A stretch of 64,000 nt of DNA from the NCBI GenBank assembly GCA_029254025.1, contig JAQWYK010000025.1, positions 1 through 64,000 of the forward strand, read 5' to 3'. Of the stretch, positions 10,837 through 55,246 are shown piece after piece; positions within the stretch are counted from its first letter, which is position 1; every line of letters starts with the position of its first letter. Under the pieces are notes generated by a model. It did not search any database. It saw nothing but the letters and a program-made list of their open reading frames with translations, and had not been told where the DNA came from. Both the position numbers and the translations under genes were made by a program. This DNA is from Crocinitomicaceae bacterium. Its GTDB lineage: Bacteria; Bacteroidota; Bacteroidia; Flavobacteriales_D; Crocinitomicaceae.

Positions 10837-10924
10837 AAAAAAATGAAGACTCAGGGAAAATGATGTTCCACTAAAAAAAGAAATATCAATACATGATAAG
10901 TCTGACTTTATTCTGAAGTCTTCC
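10837..10924 (-). terminator. Candidate expression-platform terminator of the B12 riboswitch
   Basis: On the minus strand the arm GGAAGACTTCAG (10924-10913) can pair with CTGAGTCTTC (10854-10845) with one bulge. The second arm is followed by A and seven T residues. The loop is long (about 58 nt) and partly self-complementary. The position, between the aptamer and the first gene, is right for ligand-dependent termination. Confidence 0.45.
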
Positions 10925-10926
10925 TT

Positions 10927-11090
10927 TAACGCATTTGAGGCAAGTCTTCTGACTCACTCCTTATCCTACTCACCTTCCCATCCGTCGAGCGACGGACAGT
11001 GGCATCATGAGTAAAACTACTAGAGTTTACAGCTGCAGATACAGTTCTTGAATTTCACAAGATTCCTTATTAAAGTCATTGCGTTACTAA
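10927..11090 (-). promoter_or_regulatory. Cobalamin (B12) riboswitch aptamer
   Basis: Read on the minus strand, conserved blocks appear in the right order: GGAATCTTGTGAAATTC, then CTGCAGCTGTAA, then GCCACTGT. A hairpin CCGTCGCTCGACGG follows, then ATGGGAAGG and the B12 box GAGTCAGAAGACTTGCCT. The ends AACGCA and TGCGTT can form the closing P1 helix. The element lies about 120 nt upstream of the DUF4465 gene and should lower expression of that gene, btuB, btuG and the 331-residue protein when adenosyl- or related cobalamin binds. Confidence 0.92.
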
Positions 11091-11110
11091 TGACTACCTA
11101 AAACGTGATA

Positions 11111-11118
11111 CAAAGTTA
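11111..11118 (-). promoter_or_regulatory. Promoter -7 box for the riboswitch operon
   Basis: On the minus strand this reads TAACTTTG, an exact TAnnTTTG match, about 20 nt before the start of the aptamer P1 helix. Transcription would start near 11105, so the whole aptamer is in the leader. Confidence 0.6.
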
Positions 11119-12358: not shown

Positions 12359-13360
12359 ATGGATAAGACGAATAATCGATATTATGTACAAGTAAGTGGC
12401 GGATTACTTCTCCTTCTCCTTGTTGCAGTTTTATATGATTTGAGTCTTGGTAGTGTTTCCATTTCATGGTCAACAATTGTTAAAAGTATTGTAGATTACG
12501 ATATCACCTCATCAGAGGAATTGACTGTTCAGGTATTTCGAATTCCAAGAGTGTTAACTGCTGTTTTTACTGGGGTAGCATTGTCTATTGCGGGGTTATT
12601 AATGCAAACACTCTTTCAAAATCCGTTGGCTGGACCTTATGTTTTAGGTATAAATTCAGGAGCGAGTTTGCTTGTTGCGTTGAGTACCATGACAGGGGTT
12701 ACATTTTTCTCTTCCGATGTGGATATGGTCTCAGCTGCGCTTGTAGGTGCGTTGGCTAGTGGACTTTTTATACTATTTTGCGCGCTTTATGTAAAGAATA
12801 AAGTATCGCTTCTTTTGGTAGGTATTATGTTTGGAAGTTTTGCCGGTGCGCTGGTGAATGTTGTTCAGTCATACAGTAGTCCTGACGATTTAAAGTTGTT
12901 CATGTTGTGGAGTTTTGGTTCACTTCAAAATGTGGAGATGACTCAACTTCCTATTTTTGGCGGAGTCGTTTTGATAGGTGTACTTTTATCTTTCTTTATT
13001 GTTAAATCGCTTAATTTGCTGGTTCTGGGCGAATCAAGCGCATCCTTTTTAGGGGTCAATGTAAAGTTTACCCGCTTCTCCATCATTTATATTACGGCGA
13101 TTTTCACAGGAGTATCAACCGCCTATTGCGGGCCTATAGCGTTTGTTGGATTAATCGTGCCAAATATTACTAAGATGGTGTATAAAACTACTAATCACTT
13201 TTTTTTGTTGGTTGGAACACTTCTTTTGGGTGGATTGATGATTGTGTTTTGCGACATTTTGATGAATCTTTTACAACCGATTGTATCACTTCCTCTTAAC
13301 GCATTAACTGCGCTAATGGGGGCTCCATTAGTAGTTTGGATAATTCTAAAACGCTTCTAG
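12359..13360 (+). CDS. btuC: BtuC-like permease of the cobalamin ABC importer (FecCD family)
   Basis: 333 residues, the usual length for a FecCD/BtuC permease with about ten membrane helices. Family signatures are clear: FRIPRVLTAVFTGVALSIAG, LMQTLFQNPLAGPYVLGINS, then LLVGIMFGSF and AFVGLIVPNI. The GPIAFVGLIVPN loop is the coupling helix that contacts the ATPase. It forms the inner-membrane channel with the ATPase encoded immediately downstream; the stop codon of this gene and the ATG of the next are adjacent. Cobalamin as substrate is inferred from the neighbouring riboswitch operon and BtuG-like gene. Confidence 0.85.
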   Translation: MDKTNNRYYVQVSGGLLLLLLVAVLYDLSLGSVSISWSTIVKSIVDYDITSSEELTVQVFRIPRVLTAVFTGVALSIAGLLMQTLFQNPLAGPYVLGINSGASLLVALSTMTGVTFFSSDVDMVSAALVGALASGLFILFCALYVKNKVSLLLVGIMFGSFAGALVNVVQSYSSPDDLKLFMLWSFGSLQNVEMTQLPIFGGVVLIGVLLSFFIVKSLNLLVLGESSASFLGVNVKFTRFSIIYITAIFTGVSTAYCGPIAFVGLIVPNITKMVYKTTNHFFLLVGTLLLGGLMIVFCDILMNLLQPIVSLPLNALTALMGAPLVVWIILKRF

Positions 13361-48763: not shown

Positions 48764-48794
48764 TTGTTCGAATAGATTATTTACTTCATATTTG
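48764..48794 (+). promoter_or_regulatory. Promoter of the trp operon leader
   Basis: TTG at 48764-48766, a 20-nt spacer and CATATTTG at 48787-48794 (one mismatch to TAnnTTTG). Only 6 nt separate the box from the leader ATG at 48801, so the leader peptide mRNA would be essentially leaderless. Confidence 0.5.
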
Positions 48795-48800
48795 CATTCT

Positions 48801-48869
48801 ATGAATAGGACAATTCAAAATACAAATTGGTGGTGGCTAAGCACGCGATGGTGTGATTTAGCGCAATAA
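48801..48869 (+). CDS. trpL: trp operon leader peptide, 22 residues with four Trp
   Basis: Peptide MNRTIQNTNWWWLSTRWCDL then AQ and stop. It has three consecutive Trp codons at 48828-48836 and a fourth at 48849. It lies 91 bp before trpE, between a promoter and an intrinsic terminator, and its 3' half forms the attenuator stems. This is the textbook layout of ribosome-mediated attenuation: stalling at the Trp codons when charged tRNA-Trp is scarce should permit read-through into trpE. The frame is open further upstream, but only this ATG fits the promoter. Confidence 0.88.
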   Translation: MNRTIQNTNWWWLSTRWCDLAQ

Positions 48870-48909
48870 TATTTGTATTTATACTCAATATAAAAGCGGT
48901 TACTCACAC
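48836..48909 (+). promoter_or_regulatory. trp attenuator: mutually exclusive RNA pairings
   Basis: Region 1 GCTAAGCAC (48836-48844) pairs with GTG and TTTAGC of region 2 (48853-48862, one bulged A). Region 2 GTGTGA (48851-48856) can instead pair with TCACAC of region 3 (48904-48909). Region 3 overlaps the left arm and loop of the terminator. A ribosome paused on the Trp triplet covers region 1 and frees region 2 to pair with region 3; one that reaches the stop codon covers region 2 and lets the terminator form. Confidence 0.65.
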
Positions 48910-48925
48910 GAGTGCCGCTTTTTTT
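48893..48925 (+). terminator. Attenuator terminator before trpE
   Basis: AAAGCGG (48893-48899) pairs with CCGCTTT (48915-48921), and ACTC with GAGT at the top around an ACAC loop. Seven T residues end at 48925. It lies 35 bp before the trpE ATG. Confidence 0.85.
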
Positions 48926-48959
48926 GTTCCATTTTTTTTCTCAAAAATCATTAATTATC

Positions 48960-50360
48960 ATGTTTATTCTATCCAAAATAGAGCAGTTTAATGCAGATAC
49001 ATTTTCACCAGTCGGTGTTTATATGAGTTTGCGCGATCATTATCGCAAGCCTTGTTTATTAGAGAGTAATTCGTACTATGATCGGTCGAATTCAAAATCA
49101 TTTATTGGGTTGGATCCCCTTGTAGAACTCCAGCTTTTTGATACGTACTATTTGGTCAATGATTGCGGAGTGGAGCGCAAAGTCCCAGTAGACCGCTCAA
49201 ATTTTTCCGAGCAATTAGAAGCGCTGGTGGGGGAGTATTCATTTCAGAATACGCATTTTACAAACGGTTTTTTTGCCTATTCAGGATTCGAACTTTCTGC
49301 CTTTGTAGAACAGAATACAATTCTAAAAGAGGGAGTTTTAGACCTTCCTCATTTACACCTTATTTTATTCCGTTACATGATTGTATTGGATCATTTTAAC
49401 GATGAAGGACTGATGGTAGAACACACCACTGATACGTTCTCTATTAACTTTGATAATATCCACGAAAAAATTAGTTTTCGGGCCGCTACCACTTTTCCTT
49501 TTACATTGACAGGGGAAGAGAAGGAGTCAACGACTGCAGAAGAGTTTAAGCAGGGCGTAGACCACGCAATTGCACATTGTCAACGTGGCGATGTATTTCA
49601 ATTGGTATTATCTCGTCGTTTTCAGCAGGCGTTCGATGGGGAGGATTTTGAAATCTATCGCCAACTACGTCGCACCAATCCTTCCCCGTATTTGTTCTAT
49701 TTTGACTATGAATCGCACCGTTTGATGGGCTCTTCCCCTGAGGCACAATTAGTCGTTCAGAACGGTGAAGCAGAGATTCATCCCATTGCTGGGACAGTGA
49801 AACGAACAAATGACAGAGAGCTCGATGAGCGCATGACACAGTTTTTGCGTGATGATGAGAAGGAAAATGCAGAACATACGATGTTGGTGGATCTTGCGCG
49901 TAATGACCTAAGTAAGCATTGTACGGAGGTAAAAGTCGCTCGATACAAGGATGTCCAGGCATTTAGTCATGTCATTCATTTAGTGTCAAAAGTAAAGGGT
50001 CGCCTGCATGGAAACAACGCACTACCGATATACCTGGATACGTTTCCTGCTGGGACGTTGTCAGGAACACCGAAGCCCAAAGCACTCGAGTTAATTGCAA
50101 AGTACGAGCCACATGCGCGCGAATTCTATGGAGGTGGTATTGGTTTTATCGGGGTGCATGGAAATTTGAATATGGCCATTGTTATTCGTTCTATTCTTTC
50201 AAAAAACAACCAACTTCATTATCAAGCTGGTGCTGGAGTAGTGCTTGACTCTAATCGCGAAGCTGAAAGTCAAGAAGTACATAATAAATTAAATGCGCTG
50301 CGCACAGCAATACGTTTGTGCGCACAGCAGTCTGTTCATCAAGAAAAATTTGCCCTATGA
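48960..50360 (+). CDS. trpE: Anthranilate synthase component I
   Basis: 466 residues from the ATG at 48960; an open frame further upstream overlaps the attenuator. The Trp feedback motif LLESNSYYDR lies near residues 32-41. The chorismate-binding domain shows GDVFQLVLSRRFQQAF, NPSPYLFYFDYESHRLMGSS, HPIAGTVKRT, FPAGTLSGTPK and FYGGGIGFIG. It makes anthranilate from chorismate with ammonia from TrpG. Its stop overlaps the trpG start (ATGA). Confidence 0.96.
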   Translation: MFILSKIEQFNADTFSPVGVYMSLRDHYRKPCLLESNSYYDRSNSKSFIGLDPLVELQLFDTYYLVNDCGVERKVPVDRSNFSEQLEALVGEYSFQNTHFTNGFFAYSGFELSAFVEQNTILKEGVLDLPHLHLILFRYMIVLDHFNDEGLMVEHTTDTFSINFDNIHEKISFRAATTFPFTLTGEEKESTTAEEFKQGVDHAIAHCQRGDVFQLVLSRRFQQAFDGEDFEIYRQLRRTNPSPYLFYFDYESHRLMGSSPEAQLVVQNGEAEIHPIAGTVKRTNDRELDERMTQFLRDDEKENAEHTMLVDLARNDLSKHCTEVKVARYKDVQAFSHVIHLVSKVKGRLHGNNALPIYLDTFPAGTLSGTPKPKALELIAKYEPHAREFYGGGIGFIGVHGNLNMAIVIRSILSKNNQLHYQAGAGVVLDSNREAESQEVHNKLNALRTAIRLCAQQSVHQEKFAL

Positions 50361-50932
50361 AAATTGCAATTATAGATAACTACGATTCGTTTGTTTACAA
50401 CCTTGTGCGTTATGTTAAGGAGACCTACGGAGTGACTGAGGTACGTGTAATGCGCAATGATGCCATAGATGAAGAGTTTTTGAATGCTTCAGCAGGTATT
50501 TTGTTGTCTCCTGGTCCTGGTATACCTTCTGAAGCAGGCGAGTTACTTCGGGTTATAGATCGGTATTCTACGGAGAAAAGTGTATTCGGAGTTTGTCTCG
50601 GCCATCAAGCCATTGGAGAATATTTCAAGGGGAAATTGGAAAAAGCACCGATCATTTATCATGGAAAGTCTTCGATTGTGCAGATGGCTAATGATTCAAA
50701 ACTATTTAAAGGGCTGAGTGAACAAGAACCCGTGGGTCGCTATCACAGTTGGCAAATCGCCAAAAAAATGCCTACTTGTTTAAAAGTAACGGCCACTGAT
50801 GCTGCAGGAAATGTTATGGCATTTGAACACCGAGAATTACCAATCATGGGGGTTCAATTTCATCCTGAAAGCATACTTACTCCGAACGGAAGAATAATTA
50901 TCAAAAATTGGATAGAGACATGTACACATTAA
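50357..50932 (+). CDS. trpG: Anthranilate synthase component II (glutamine amidotransferase)
   Basis: 191 residues from the ATG at 50357. Class I amidotransferase: IDNYDSFVYNLVRY, LLSPGPGIPSEAG (oxyanion region), GVCLGHQAIGEYF with catalytic Cys80 and GVQFHPESILTPNG with the His-Glu pair. Supplies ammonia to TrpE. Overlaps trpE by 4 bp and trpD by 13 bp. No fusion to trpD, unlike enterobacteria. Confidence 0.96.
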   Translation: MKIAIIDNYDSFVYNLVRYVKETYGVTEVRVMRNDAIDEEFLNASAGILLSPGPGIPSEAGELLRVIDRYSTEKSVFGVCLGHQAIGEYFKGKLEKAPIIYHGKSSIVQMANDSKLFKGLSEQEPVGRYHSWQIAKKMPTCLKVTATDAAGNVMAFEHRELPIMGVQFHPESILTPNGRIIIKNWIETCTH

Positions 50933-51909
50933 CAAAACTAGTCGCACAGCAACCGCTGTCAGAAGAGGAAGCGTATGGAATGCTTATGGAGATCAATCAT
51001 GACGAACTCAGTGATGCTCAAGTAACAGGTCTTATGGTTGCCCTTCAAACAAGAAATATTACTCTTTCTGAAATTGCAGGTTTTAAACGCGCATTGATAG
51101 CGCTTTCTATTAAACCTGAATTGGATGGTACTGGAGCCATTGACTTGTGCGGTACAGGCGGGGATGGAAAGAATACGTTCAACATCAGTACAACTACTTC
51201 CTTCGTTTTAGGCGCGATGGGCTATAAAGTCATCAAGCATGGGAATTATGGAGTCTCTTCACTCTGCGGGTCATCGAATGTATTGGAAGAGTTGGGGTAT
51301 AACTTTTCAAGCGACTCTACTCGACTTCAGAAGAGTCTAATTGATTTCAATTTGACGTTTCTTCATGCCCCATTGTTTCATCCTATTATGAAAAAAGTTG
51401 CTCCAATGCGCAAATCGCTTGGCATCCCAACCTTTTTTAATATAATGGGACCACTTGTGAATCCAGTTCAACCAGACTATCAGCTAACAGGAACGTTTAA
51501 CTTGGCAGTTGCCCGCATGTATCATCATGTGTTGAAGACGTGTAGGAAAAATTACAAAGTGGTCTTTACGATGGATGGTTACGATGAGATTAGCTTAACG
51601 GGAGATACGCGCATATTTGCGCATGGACAAGATGAACTTTTTCATCCCCGTCAAATCAAACTGAAACAATTGGAGCAAAAGGATATTTATGGTGGGCGAT
51701 CTCCACAAGAAGCTGCGCAAATCATTCGAGCAATTCTGGGAGGAAGAGGATCAGATGAGCAGCGAACAGTTGTTGCATCAAATACCGCACACGCGATTCA
51801 AGTGATTAACCCAGAAAAATCCCTAGTTGAACTATATGCAAACGTAGAAGATTTTATGCGCACGGGCAGAGCAGAAGAATATTTAAATGATTTTTTAAAC
51901 CAAGATTAA
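50920..51909 (+). CDS. trpD: Anthranilate phosphoribosyltransferase
   Basis: 329 residues from the ATG at 50920 (MYTLTKLVAQQPLSEEEAYG), which sits inside the trpG end; a TTG at 50908 is less likely. Signatures: DLCGTGGDGKNTFNISTTTS (PRPP binding), KHGNYGVSSLCGSSNVLEEL, HPIMKKVAPMRKSLGIPTFF and NIMGPLVNP. Transfers the phosphoribosyl group from PRPP to anthranilate, second step of Trp synthesis. Confidence 0.96.
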   Translation: MYTLTKLVAQQPLSEEEAYGMLMEINHDELSDAQVTGLMVALQTRNITLSEIAGFKRALIALSIKPELDGTGAIDLCGTGGDGKNTFNISTTTSFVLGAMGYKVIKHGNYGVSSLCGSSNVLEELGYNFSSDSTRLQKSLIDFNLTFLHAPLFHPIMKKVAPMRKSLGIPTFFNIMGPLVNPVQPDYQLTGTFNLAVARMYHHVLKTCRKNYKVVFTMDGYDEISLTGDTRIFAHGQDELFHPRQIKLKQLEQKDIYGGRSPQEAAQIIRAILGGRGSDEQRTVVASNTAHAIQVINPEKSLVELYANVEDFMRTGRAEEYLNDFLNQD

Positions 51910-51913
51910 GACA

Positions 51914-52702
51914 ATGAACTATTTAGATAAAATTATTGAACATAAGAAGAATGAAGTGAAACAGAAGAGAGTTGAAGTGAAGCGTTTGGAACTTGAATCA
52001 TCTCCATACTTCAAATTACCCGCTTACTCGTTGAGACAATCGCTTCTGGAGAAGAATTTTGGAATTATTGCTGAAATAAAACGAAAGTCGCCAAGTAAAG
52101 GTGTTATCGACCCTGACTTAAACCCTGTTGACTTGGCCCGCAATTACGAGCACTCGGGAGCTGCAGCCATTTCTGTCCTAACAGACCAATATTTTTTCGG
52201 AGGATCCAATGATGACCTTCTAGCAGTGCGCTCAGTGAGTCAATTACCAATCCTTCGTAAAGACTTTATTATTGATGAATATCAAATTTTTGAGGCAAAA
52301 TCGATCGGTGCGGATTGTATCCTGTTAATTGCCGAAGTATTGAGCAAGGAGCATCTACATGAACTCGCGTTGATAGCGAGGAGTCTAGGCATGGAAGTAC
52401 TCATGGAAATTCATGCTGAGGCATCCTTGGAGAAGTTAAACGCAGAAGTAACTTTGATTGGTGTTAACAACCGAAACTTGGCCACGCAGGAAATTGCATT
52501 GGAGACTAGTCGTAGGATCTATCCATTTTTACCGCAAGGAGTCCCGCTTATTTCAGAGTCAGGAATTCGAGGCATTTCTGATTTACAAGAAATAGCTCAA
52601 ATCGGCTATCAAGGGGCACTTATTGGGACTTCCATTGTTGCTCACAATAAGCCGAGCGCTTTTTTAAGTGAATTAGTTAACGTTCAAAATCTAGCTGTAT
52701 GA
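51914..52702 (+). CDS. trpC: Indole-3-glycerol phosphate synthase
   Basis: 262 residues. TIM barrel with GIIAEIKRKSPSKGVIDPDL (catalytic Glu and Lys), AAAISVLTDQYFFGGS, LPILRKDFIIDEYQ and IGVNNRNLATQEIAL. Converts carboxyphenylaminodeoxyribulose 5-phosphate to indole-3-glycerol phosphate. Stands 4 bp after trpD and overlaps trpF by 4 bp; not fused to trpF. Confidence 0.96.
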   Translation: MNYLDKIIEHKKNEVKQKRVEVKRLELESSPYFKLPAYSLRQSLLEKNFGIIAEIKRKSPSKGVIDPDLNPVDLARNYEHSGAAAISVLTDQYFFGGSNDDLLAVRSVSQLPILRKDFIIDEYQIFEAKSIGADCILLIAEVLSKEHLHELALIARSLGMEVLMEIHAEASLEKLNAEVTLIGVNNRNLATQEIALETSRRIYPFLPQGVPLISESGIRGISDLQEIAQIGYQGALIGTSIVAHNKPSAFLSELVNVQNLAV

Positions 52703-53319
52703 TCTTGAAAGTATGTGGACTAAATGATGTCGAAAATATTCGCACGGTGGAAGGAATGAAAGGCGTAACGCACACGGGATTTATCTTCGTGCAGAATTCT
52801 CCACGAAACGCCTTGTCATTAATTGAAATTCCGGAAAAGAGGGAGGGGGTAAAACGTGTTGGTGTATTCATGAACCCTGAGGTAAAGGAGGTTATCCTGT
52901 GTGCGAAAAGATTTCACTTAGACATTGTGCAGTTACATGGGGATGAAGCACCTGAATTATGTTCTGAAATAAGTGCCTTCGCGGAAGTGTGGAAAGCAAT
53001 AGGAATTGCCTCCGCCGATGACTTTGCCAAAATAGATCAGTATTTACCTTTTTGTACTGCTTTTGTGTTGGACAAAAAAACACCATTAGGAGGAGGTTCG
53101 GGTGAGCAATACAATTGGCAACTTCTTTCGAACTATCAATTTCATATACCCTTTTTGTTGAGTGGAGGGATTGCTGCAACGGATGCTGCGCGTCTTGCTG
53201 CGCTAAAACATAATAAATGTGTAGGATACGATATTAATAGTCGGTTTGAAGTATCTCCGGGAATAAAAGATGCTCGGGCAATTAACTTATTTATTGAACA
53301 ATTAGAACAAAACAAATGA
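52699..53319 (+). CDS. trpF: Phosphoribosylanthranilate isomerase
   Basis: 206 residues. Start [19 protein letters not shown] has the catalytic Cys in [52 protein letters not shown] (with catalytic Asp) and [15 protein letters not shown] follow. Third-step isomerase. Overlaps trpC and trpB by 4 bp each. Confidence 0.95.
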
Positions 53320-54506
53320 ACTCTTACTTAGACACAGATGAATTAGGATTTTATGGGGATTTTGGAGGAGCATATATTCCAGAATTATTGAGACCAAACA
53401 TCGAAGAATTAGAACAAGCGTTTTCCTATTATCGGAACGATGCACAATTCATAGATGAATATAAATCCTTATTGAAAGATTATGTAGGTCGTCCAACTCC
53501 GCTGTATTTTTCAGCGAAATTATCTGCTACGTTTGGCGCGAAAATTTATTTGAAACGAGAAGATCTTTGTCACACAGGTGCCCATAAGGTCAATAATACC
53601 ATTGGACAAATTCTATTGGCGAAACGGATGGGGAAGTCAACAATTATAGCAGAAACTGGTGCTGGTCAGCATGGTGTTGCAACGGCAACAGCCTGTGCTC
53701 TGTCTGGTATGGAGTGCAAGGTATTTATGGGTGAAAAGGATATTGAACGTCAAGCTCCGAACGTTTTGCGCATGAATTATTTAGGAGCGGAGGTGATACC
53801 TGCCGTTTCAGGAAGTAAAACACTCAAGGACGCAACGAATGAAGCAATTCGATACTGGATAAATCACCCCGAAACATTTTATTTGATTGGTTCCGTAGTC
53901 GGTCCTCATCCATATCCCAAAATGGTAGCTGAATTTCAATCCATTATTAGTGAGGAAATCCGACAACAACTGTTGGAAAAAGAAGGTCGTAGAAATCCGG
54001 ATATTGTCATTGCATGTGTAGGTGGTGGAAGCAATGCAGCGGGTGCCTTTTACCATTTTTACGATGTCCCAGAAGTACAATTGATAGCTGTCGAGGCGGC
54101 GGGTGAAGGGGTAATGACAGGGAAGAGTGCAGCGACGTCTGCTTTGGGAACGCCTGGAGTAATTCATGGTTCTATGACGTTGTTGATGCAAGATCAAGAT
54201 GGTCAAATTACTGAGCCGCACAGTATCTCAGCAGGTTTAGATTATCCCGGTATAGGCCCTTTGCATGCACATACGATTTCTTCTGGAAGGGTGCAAGCCA
54301 TTGCTGTAACGGATAATGAAGCCTTGGAAGCGGCTCATGCCTTGGCGCTGACAGAAGGAATTATTCCAGCGTTAGAAACGGCACATGCGCTAGGAGCATT
54401 GAACCAATTGACCCTAAATCCAGATGATGTTGTGGTGATAAATCTCTCAGGAAGGGGAGATAAAGATCTGGAAACAATCGCGAAATTCATAAATAAGACG
54501 TCATGA
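53316..54506 (+). CDS. trpB: Tryptophan synthase beta chain
   Basis: 396 residues. The PLP lysine is Lys91 in [10 protein letters not shown]. Other hallmarks: [55 protein letters not shown] (phosphate loop), [14 protein letters not shown] and [16 protein letters not shown]. Condenses indole with serine to form Trp, as an alpha2beta2 complex with TrpA. Class TrpB1 by length and context. Confidence 0.97.
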
Positions 54507-55246
54507 AATTAAAAACTACGCATCCTTTATTGAGTATATTTCTCACAGCAGGTTACCCACAGTTAAATGATCTGCCACGTCAACTTGCACTTCTTGAAAA
54601 ATATGGGGTCGATTTTGTCGAGGTGGGAATTCCTTTTTCAGATCCTTTAGCTGATGGACCTGTTATCCAAGAATCAAGTACTATTGCCTTGAAAAATGGA
54701 ATGCAGTTATCACTTATTTTTCAACAATTGAAAGCGGTGAACACTTCGGTTCCGTTGGTACTTATGGGCTACCTTAATCCGATTTTACAATTTGGAATGG
54801 ATCGATTTCTAGCTGAAGCAAATCATGTAGGGGTGAAGCATGTTGTGTTGCCAGATTTGAGCATCGAAATCTATGAGCGCTCTTATAAGGAGATATTTGA
54901 TCATTATGGTGTGACGCCTTGTTTTTTAGTGACTCCTAAAACATCCGATGACCGCATTCGAAAAGCGGCACGTCTTTCAGAAAAAGGATTTGTGTATTTG
55001 GTGTCGACGAATGCGACAACTGGGTCTCAGCATCTAACCACGCTTAATTTGCAAGAGCGTTACCGCGAAGTGAAATCACTTTGTGGAGCTACTCCAGTAA
55101 TTATGGGGTTTGGAATCAGGGATAAAGCGACATTTGAAGCAGCAACAGTAGACGTGGATGGTGCCATCATCGGAAGTGCTTTCATTCAGGCATTGGGTAG
55201 CGGCAAAGAAGAGGAGTTCTTAGCACAATTAAAATCACCGAAATAA
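54503..55246 (+). CDS. trpA: Tryptophan synthase alpha chain
   Basis: 247 residues. Catalytic Glu40 and Asp51 in [37 protein letters not shown], then [13 protein letters not shown] and [14 protein letters not shown], and [14 protein letters not shown]. Cleaves indole-3-glycerol phosphate to indole and glyceraldehyde 3-phosphate. Last gene of the operon, overlapping trpB by 4 bp. No terminator is visible after it. Confidence 0.96.

Follow-up and report, generated by a model that had tools for sequence, protein, structure and literature searches.

The stretch of DNA analysed here (the window) comprises the first 64,000 nucleotides of contig JAQWYK010000025.1 from a Crocinitomicaceae bacterium (Bacteroidota; assembly GCA_029254025.1) and carries a trp operon of seven genes in the order trpEGDCFBA, with trpE starting at 48960. 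Profile searches matched the genes to trpE, trpG, trpD, trpC, trpF, trpB and trpA models, with some of the scores, that of trpE among them, falling below the NCBI curated cut-offs. Upstream of trpE lies a 22-codon, Trp-rich leader ORF, MNRTIQNTNWWWLSTRWCDLAQ (start ATG at 48801, stop TAA at 48867-48869), in which codons 10-12 encode WWW and codon 17 a fourth W. An intrinsic terminator, formed by a hairpin and T7 (48892-48925), stands between this ORF and trpE. The peptide with its four Trp residues, the terminator and a promoter box 6 nt before the leader ATG had all been pointed out in an earlier reading of the letters without database searches (the sequence-only reading), and all three were borne out. 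The features of the locus are listed below with the evidence for each:

48764-48766, plus strand: TTG, a weak candidate for a -33 element, from its position relative to the predicted start site
48787-48794, plus strand: -7 promoter box CATATTTG, with five of the six fixed positions of TAnnTTTG and counterparts at conserved spacing in relatives
48799-48801, plus strand: predicted transcription start, 0-2 nt before the AUG, from the box spacing and the 4-5 nt rule of F. johnsoniae (PMC6847099)
48801-48869, plus strand: trp leader peptide ORF, from the sequence and homologous leaders
48818-48827, plus strand: region 1, the 5' strand of the outer stem, from folding and covariation; the RF01692 consensus has the same stem
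48828-48836, plus strand: WWW regulatory codons 10-12, from translation and conservation
48851-48856, plus strand: region 2, the 5' strand of the antiterminator (GUGUGA), from covariation and folding
48871-48880, plus strand: 3' strand of the outer stem, directly past the stop codon, from folding, covariation and the RF01692 consensus
48892-48925, plus strand: intrinsic terminator hairpin and T-run, from folding and relatives
48904-48909, plus strand: region 3, the 3' strand of the antiterminator (UCACAC), in the terminator 5' arm and loop, from covariation and folding
48960-50360, plus strand: trpE, with TIGR00564 as the best model
50357-55246, plus strand: trpG, trpD, trpC, trpF, trpB and trpA, from profile matches

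This is the anatomy of an attenuator: a short ORF enriched in codons for the regulated amino acid lies 5' of the operon, an intrinsic terminator separates that ORF from the first gene, and an antiterminator that is conserved by covariation is mutually exclusive with the terminator. The 146-nt leader has a minimum free energy of -42.3 kcal/mol against a mean of -26 in dinucleotide shuffles (z -4.84) and folds better than 200 of 200 such shuffles. Region 1 pairs with the bases that follow the stop codon, and region 2 with the 5' arm and loop of the terminator; across the leaders, region 2 lies inside the ORF at a median of about 24 nt past the first Trp codon. Stalling was simulated by partition-function folding at the moment of terminator-loop emergence, which yields equilibrium energy estimates. 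The mean probability of the antiterminator changed from 0.21 for ribosome-free RNA to 0.88 when a ribosome was halted on the first Trp codon (n=79), and in the window from 0.008 to 0.99; since the core helix was selected for complementarity, the contrast between these states is informative and the absolute value is not. With the ribosome at the stop codon the probability was zero, as a consequence of the assumed footprint, which excludes region 2. The sequence-only reading had proposed folding of the leader as a check and had described regions 1, 2 and 3 as pairing exclusively, by the enterobacterial logic; the shuffles and the simulated Trp stall agree with such a switch, and it is the exact E. 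coli layout of 1:2, 2:3 and 3:4 pairing that does not hold.

Conservation was examined in 111 regions upstream of trpE, nearly all from the class Bacteroidia and mostly one per species, in which a leader was recognised automatically as a short ATG ORF with a WW, WWW or W-x-W motif. A Trp-rich leader and a terminator precede trpE in 94 of these regions, counting one (L061) that lacks a proper terminator and is possibly spurious; several of the remaining regions have a single Trp codon and a terminator. In a first sample, nearly every full-length trpE relative with enough upstream sequence had a Trp-rich leader. The Trp codons are conserved and the rest of the leader peptide varies widely between families. 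Covariation was assessed by comparing the pairing energy of each leader's own partners with that of species-permuted partners, a test chosen over an alignment-based pair count because leader lengths differ and picking a register would be circular. The partners of the antiterminator, at about codons 17-19 of the leader and in the terminator 5' arm and loop, co-vary (z -12.2, n=89), and so do those of the outer stem, in which the codons ahead of WWW pair with the bases past the stop codon (z -10.1). Trp-rich leaders with covarying stems are thus present upstream of trpE, where the sequence-only reading had suggested looking for them, and its own grounds for abandonment, a lack of conserved Trp codons or stems in relatives, do not apply, as both are kept across Bacteroidia. 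The conserved Trp codons, the antiterminator and the covarying outer stem support its interpretation that the operon would be attenuated according to Trp limitation. At the stall site, WRW or WLW replaces WWW in L080, L083, L084, L091 and L101 (family f24) and in L115 and L122 (family f52). A near-threshold match to Flavo-1 RNA in L122 (413-508, plus strand; 38.4 bits against a cut-off of 42) overlaps the region past the trp leader, which may have a bearing on the role of Flavo-1 RNA.

The position of the promoter relative to the leader ORF was analysed in the window and in the relatives. The box in the window has one mismatch to TAnnTTTG, with 6 nt between its end and the ATG. Transcription in F. 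johnsoniae begins 4-5 nt past the TAnnTTTG box, and the -33 element of Flavobacterium is poorly defined (PMC6847099). This rule and the 6-nt spacing together predict a 5' UTR of 0-2 nt in the window, where, given the spacing and the mismatch, a UTR of 1-2 nt would be as likely as none. The sequence-only reading had called the leader apparently leaderless; the near-leaderless spacing stands and the wording does not, a predicted 5' UTR of 0-2 nt being the appropriate description. Among the 94 leaders, 49 have a perfect -7 box 4-10 nt before the ATG, for which a 5' UTR of 0-6 nt is predicted, against 2 of 318 control gene starts, which include mid-operon genes and mechanically chosen ATGs, and 0.8% of shuffles. 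When the count is limited to starts that have some perfect box no more than 40 nt away, the spacing is short in 49 of 69 leaders and 2 of 19 controls (Fisher p 2e-6). The spacings have a further mode at about 18 nt, and the longer spacing (17-23 nt) in about a fifth of leaders indicates that the mechanism does not depend on near-leaderless initiation. Short-spacing leaders are without the A-rich pre-AUG sequence typical of long-spacing ones, the fraction of A in the six bases before the ATG being 0.25 and 0.69, respectively (p 7e-8). Where the spacing is exactly 4 nt and the start would fall on the A of the ATG, a C precedes in 11 of 16 leaders; the leader of Fluviicola chungangensis (L034) reads TATCTTTG, 4 nt, ATG. 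Of 28 families, 22 have leaders with short spacing and 8 have leaders with long spacing, the spacing counts referring to genomes and not to independent evolutionary events. Leaderless mRNAs are a minority in Bacteroidota (PMC6847099). For the window leader, we infer a near-leaderless start from the promoter spacing, with support from the pre-AUG composition.

The window resembles the Bacteroid-trp leader RNA (RF01692) in phylum, operon, Trp leader ORF and the sequence and position of the outer stem. That RNA was found in 2010 by comparative genomics (Weinberg et al. 2010, PMC2864571) and has also been recorded in front of the trp operon of F. psychrophilum (PMC6414381). The anatomy of that family, namely an AUG, an outer stem spanning the Trp codons, a downstream terminator and a trp operon, is present. 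Rfam gave no match at the window leader at curated cut-offs; in a relaxed search the window aligned to RF01692 over its full length at 26.5 bits (E 0.28; gathering cut-off 49). The leader is therefore below the threshold and formally no member of the family as the model stands, and related genomes have intermediate scores. Among 295 Bacteroidia genomes, 10 have a match above the cut-off of the model, mostly a leadered form, and the consensus includes about 20 nt before the AUG, whereas 0-2 nt are predicted in the window. One of the ten (G219, L059) has a spacing of 4, which places both start types within one RNA family. Where trpB is the first gene of the operon, as in four genomes (L167-L170), it is trpB that the Trp leader precedes; all four of these leaders score above the RF01692 cut-off, and in three of them the box lies 22-23 nt before the ATG. 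The Rfam model misses most Trp attenuators of the class Bacteroidia; with an extended RF01692, Trp control in some 28 of its families would fall under one mechanism.

Ribosome-mediated attenuation is a classical mechanism. E. coli trpL (RF00513) has the same working as that proposed for the window, in that stalling at Trp codons selects the antiterminator over the terminator, and it differs from the window, where region 2 lies within the ORF, region 1 pairs past the stop codon and no TrpR partner was found. The window was absent among RF00513 matches up to E = 10, and some of its relatives score 28-38 bits where the cut-off is 41. Leaderless Trp leaders with a start site mapped at the AUG have been described for trpL of Sinorhizobium meliloti (PMC7298713) and TrpL1 of Streptomyces lividans, MFAHSTRNWWWTAHPAAH (PMC8079986). 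Both resemble the window in having a Trp leader peptide upstream of trpE followed by an attenuator, but they belong to other phyla with other promoters, and their start is mapped whereas that of the window is predicted. The transcriptomics of F. psychrophilum gave 'strong clues' for leader-peptide attenuation and conserved 5' elements at pheA and hisG (PMC9723704); the main text of that study holds no trp details and no link of leader peptides to leaderless initiation. The sequence-only reading had missed that Rfam already lists this type of element, as RF01692, and that leaderless Trp leaders are published for other phyla. No description of a near-leaderless Bacteroid-trp subtype was found in the open-access literature; the kind is already known, and the promoter spacing appears to be the new part.

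The same attenuator could be transcribed from further upstream, in which case the leader would be an ordinary leadered ORF lacking a Shine-Dalgarno sequence, and the main promoter would be other than the box adjoining the ATG. A leadered subtype (17-23 nt) does exist in the same RNA family, whose consensus extends upstream of the AUG, and the window box has only five of six matches; however, between 48600 and the leader ORF there is no second box with 5 or 6 matches to TAnnTTTG, short spacing recurs in most of the families, and the window leader is without the A-rich stretch of its leadered relatives. A start of this kind, which the sequence-only reading had itself named as telling against its proposal, seems unlikely to us after the promoter-box search.

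In other phyla, trp operons are controlled by TrpR-type repression, TRAP, a T-box or a riboswitch, and comparable protein or ligand control of the leader RNA would make the Trp codons incidental. Neither a TrpR nor a TRAP gene was found in the window's genome, and curated and relaxed Rfam searches gave no T-box or riboswitch match at the window leader; these four modes of control were rejected on those grounds. The Trp codons are moreover kept while the remaining peptide varies, and we hold such control to be extremely improbable. The rnTrpL and peTrpL of S. meliloti act in trans (PMC7298713), and the window transcript is similarly short and apparently leaderless, so that its transcript or peptide might act in trans besides the control in cis. 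This appears very improbable, as the analysis gave no sign of it and the peptide beyond the Trp codons varies between families in the way expected of a peptide used for sensing only.

The element in the window is most probably a ribosome-mediated attenuator of trpEGDCFBA, of a divergent Bacteroid-trp type and a promoter-abutting, near-leaderless subtype. For this attenuator we infer the start site, the leaderless initiation, the ribosome footprints and the regulation in the cell as follows. RNA polymerase would start 0-2 nt before the leader AUG, and the ribosome would initiate at or very near the 5' end of the transcript. When charged tRNA-Trp is scarce, the ribosome would stall at codons 10-12 and free region 2 (codons 17-19) for pairing with region 3, and polymerase would enter trpE. 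With ample Trp, the ribosome would proceed to the stop codon and cover region 2, and the terminator would form; in untranslated RNA, region 2 would be sequestered by the outer stem together with an inner hairpin, and termination should prevail as well.

Leaders of this type also occur at other loci. A His-rich leader is present at 20 of 20 hisG loci examined, with a mix of spacings as for the Trp leaders. In the window's own genome, the leader upstream of hisG (L141; G000:C15, minus strand, about 2258-2205) encodes VITNNTHHHHVMSRQAR, has a GTG start 5 nt past a perfect -7 box, TAAATTTG, and a terminator downstream; it is apparently a leaderless GUG leader. A genome of the same genus (G001) has a His leader in which an ATG stands at the same distance from the box. 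Four genomes of family f52 (L180-L183) have a second Trp-rich leader, for example MKTINNNWWWLNEIS, before a separate trpD-trpF cluster, with a longer box spacing than the trpE leaders of the same genomes and hence two initiation styles per genome. For Leu/Ile/Val leaders upstream of ilvD only a few candidates were obtained.

We tentatively suggest, as a generalisation with slightly less than an even chance of being correct, that amino-acid attenuators of Bacteroidia comprise two initiation classes of the same leader RNA, one promoter-abutting and leaderless, GUG starts included, and one leadered with A-rich pre-AUG sequence; that lineages have switched repeatedly between them; and that one of the main natural roles of leaderless initiation, in a phylum that does without Shine-Dalgarno guidance, is the translation of leader peptides. 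Between related genomes, and even inside a single one, the near-leaderless starts provide natural pairs for the study of start-codon choice without such guidance, and the same pairs could serve to test whether leaderless loading helps the ribosome to match the pace of RNA polymerase in a short leader.

A scan of the window for other short ORFs adjoining a perfect box and a terminator gave none that was convincing. Two longer ORFs of 333 and 132 codons, at 12359 and 62196 on the plus strand, have their ATG 5 nt past a perfect -7 box and are possible leaderless mRNAs. On the minus strand, the window also contains a cobalamin riboswitch at 10922-11116 (RF00174, 96.1 bits).
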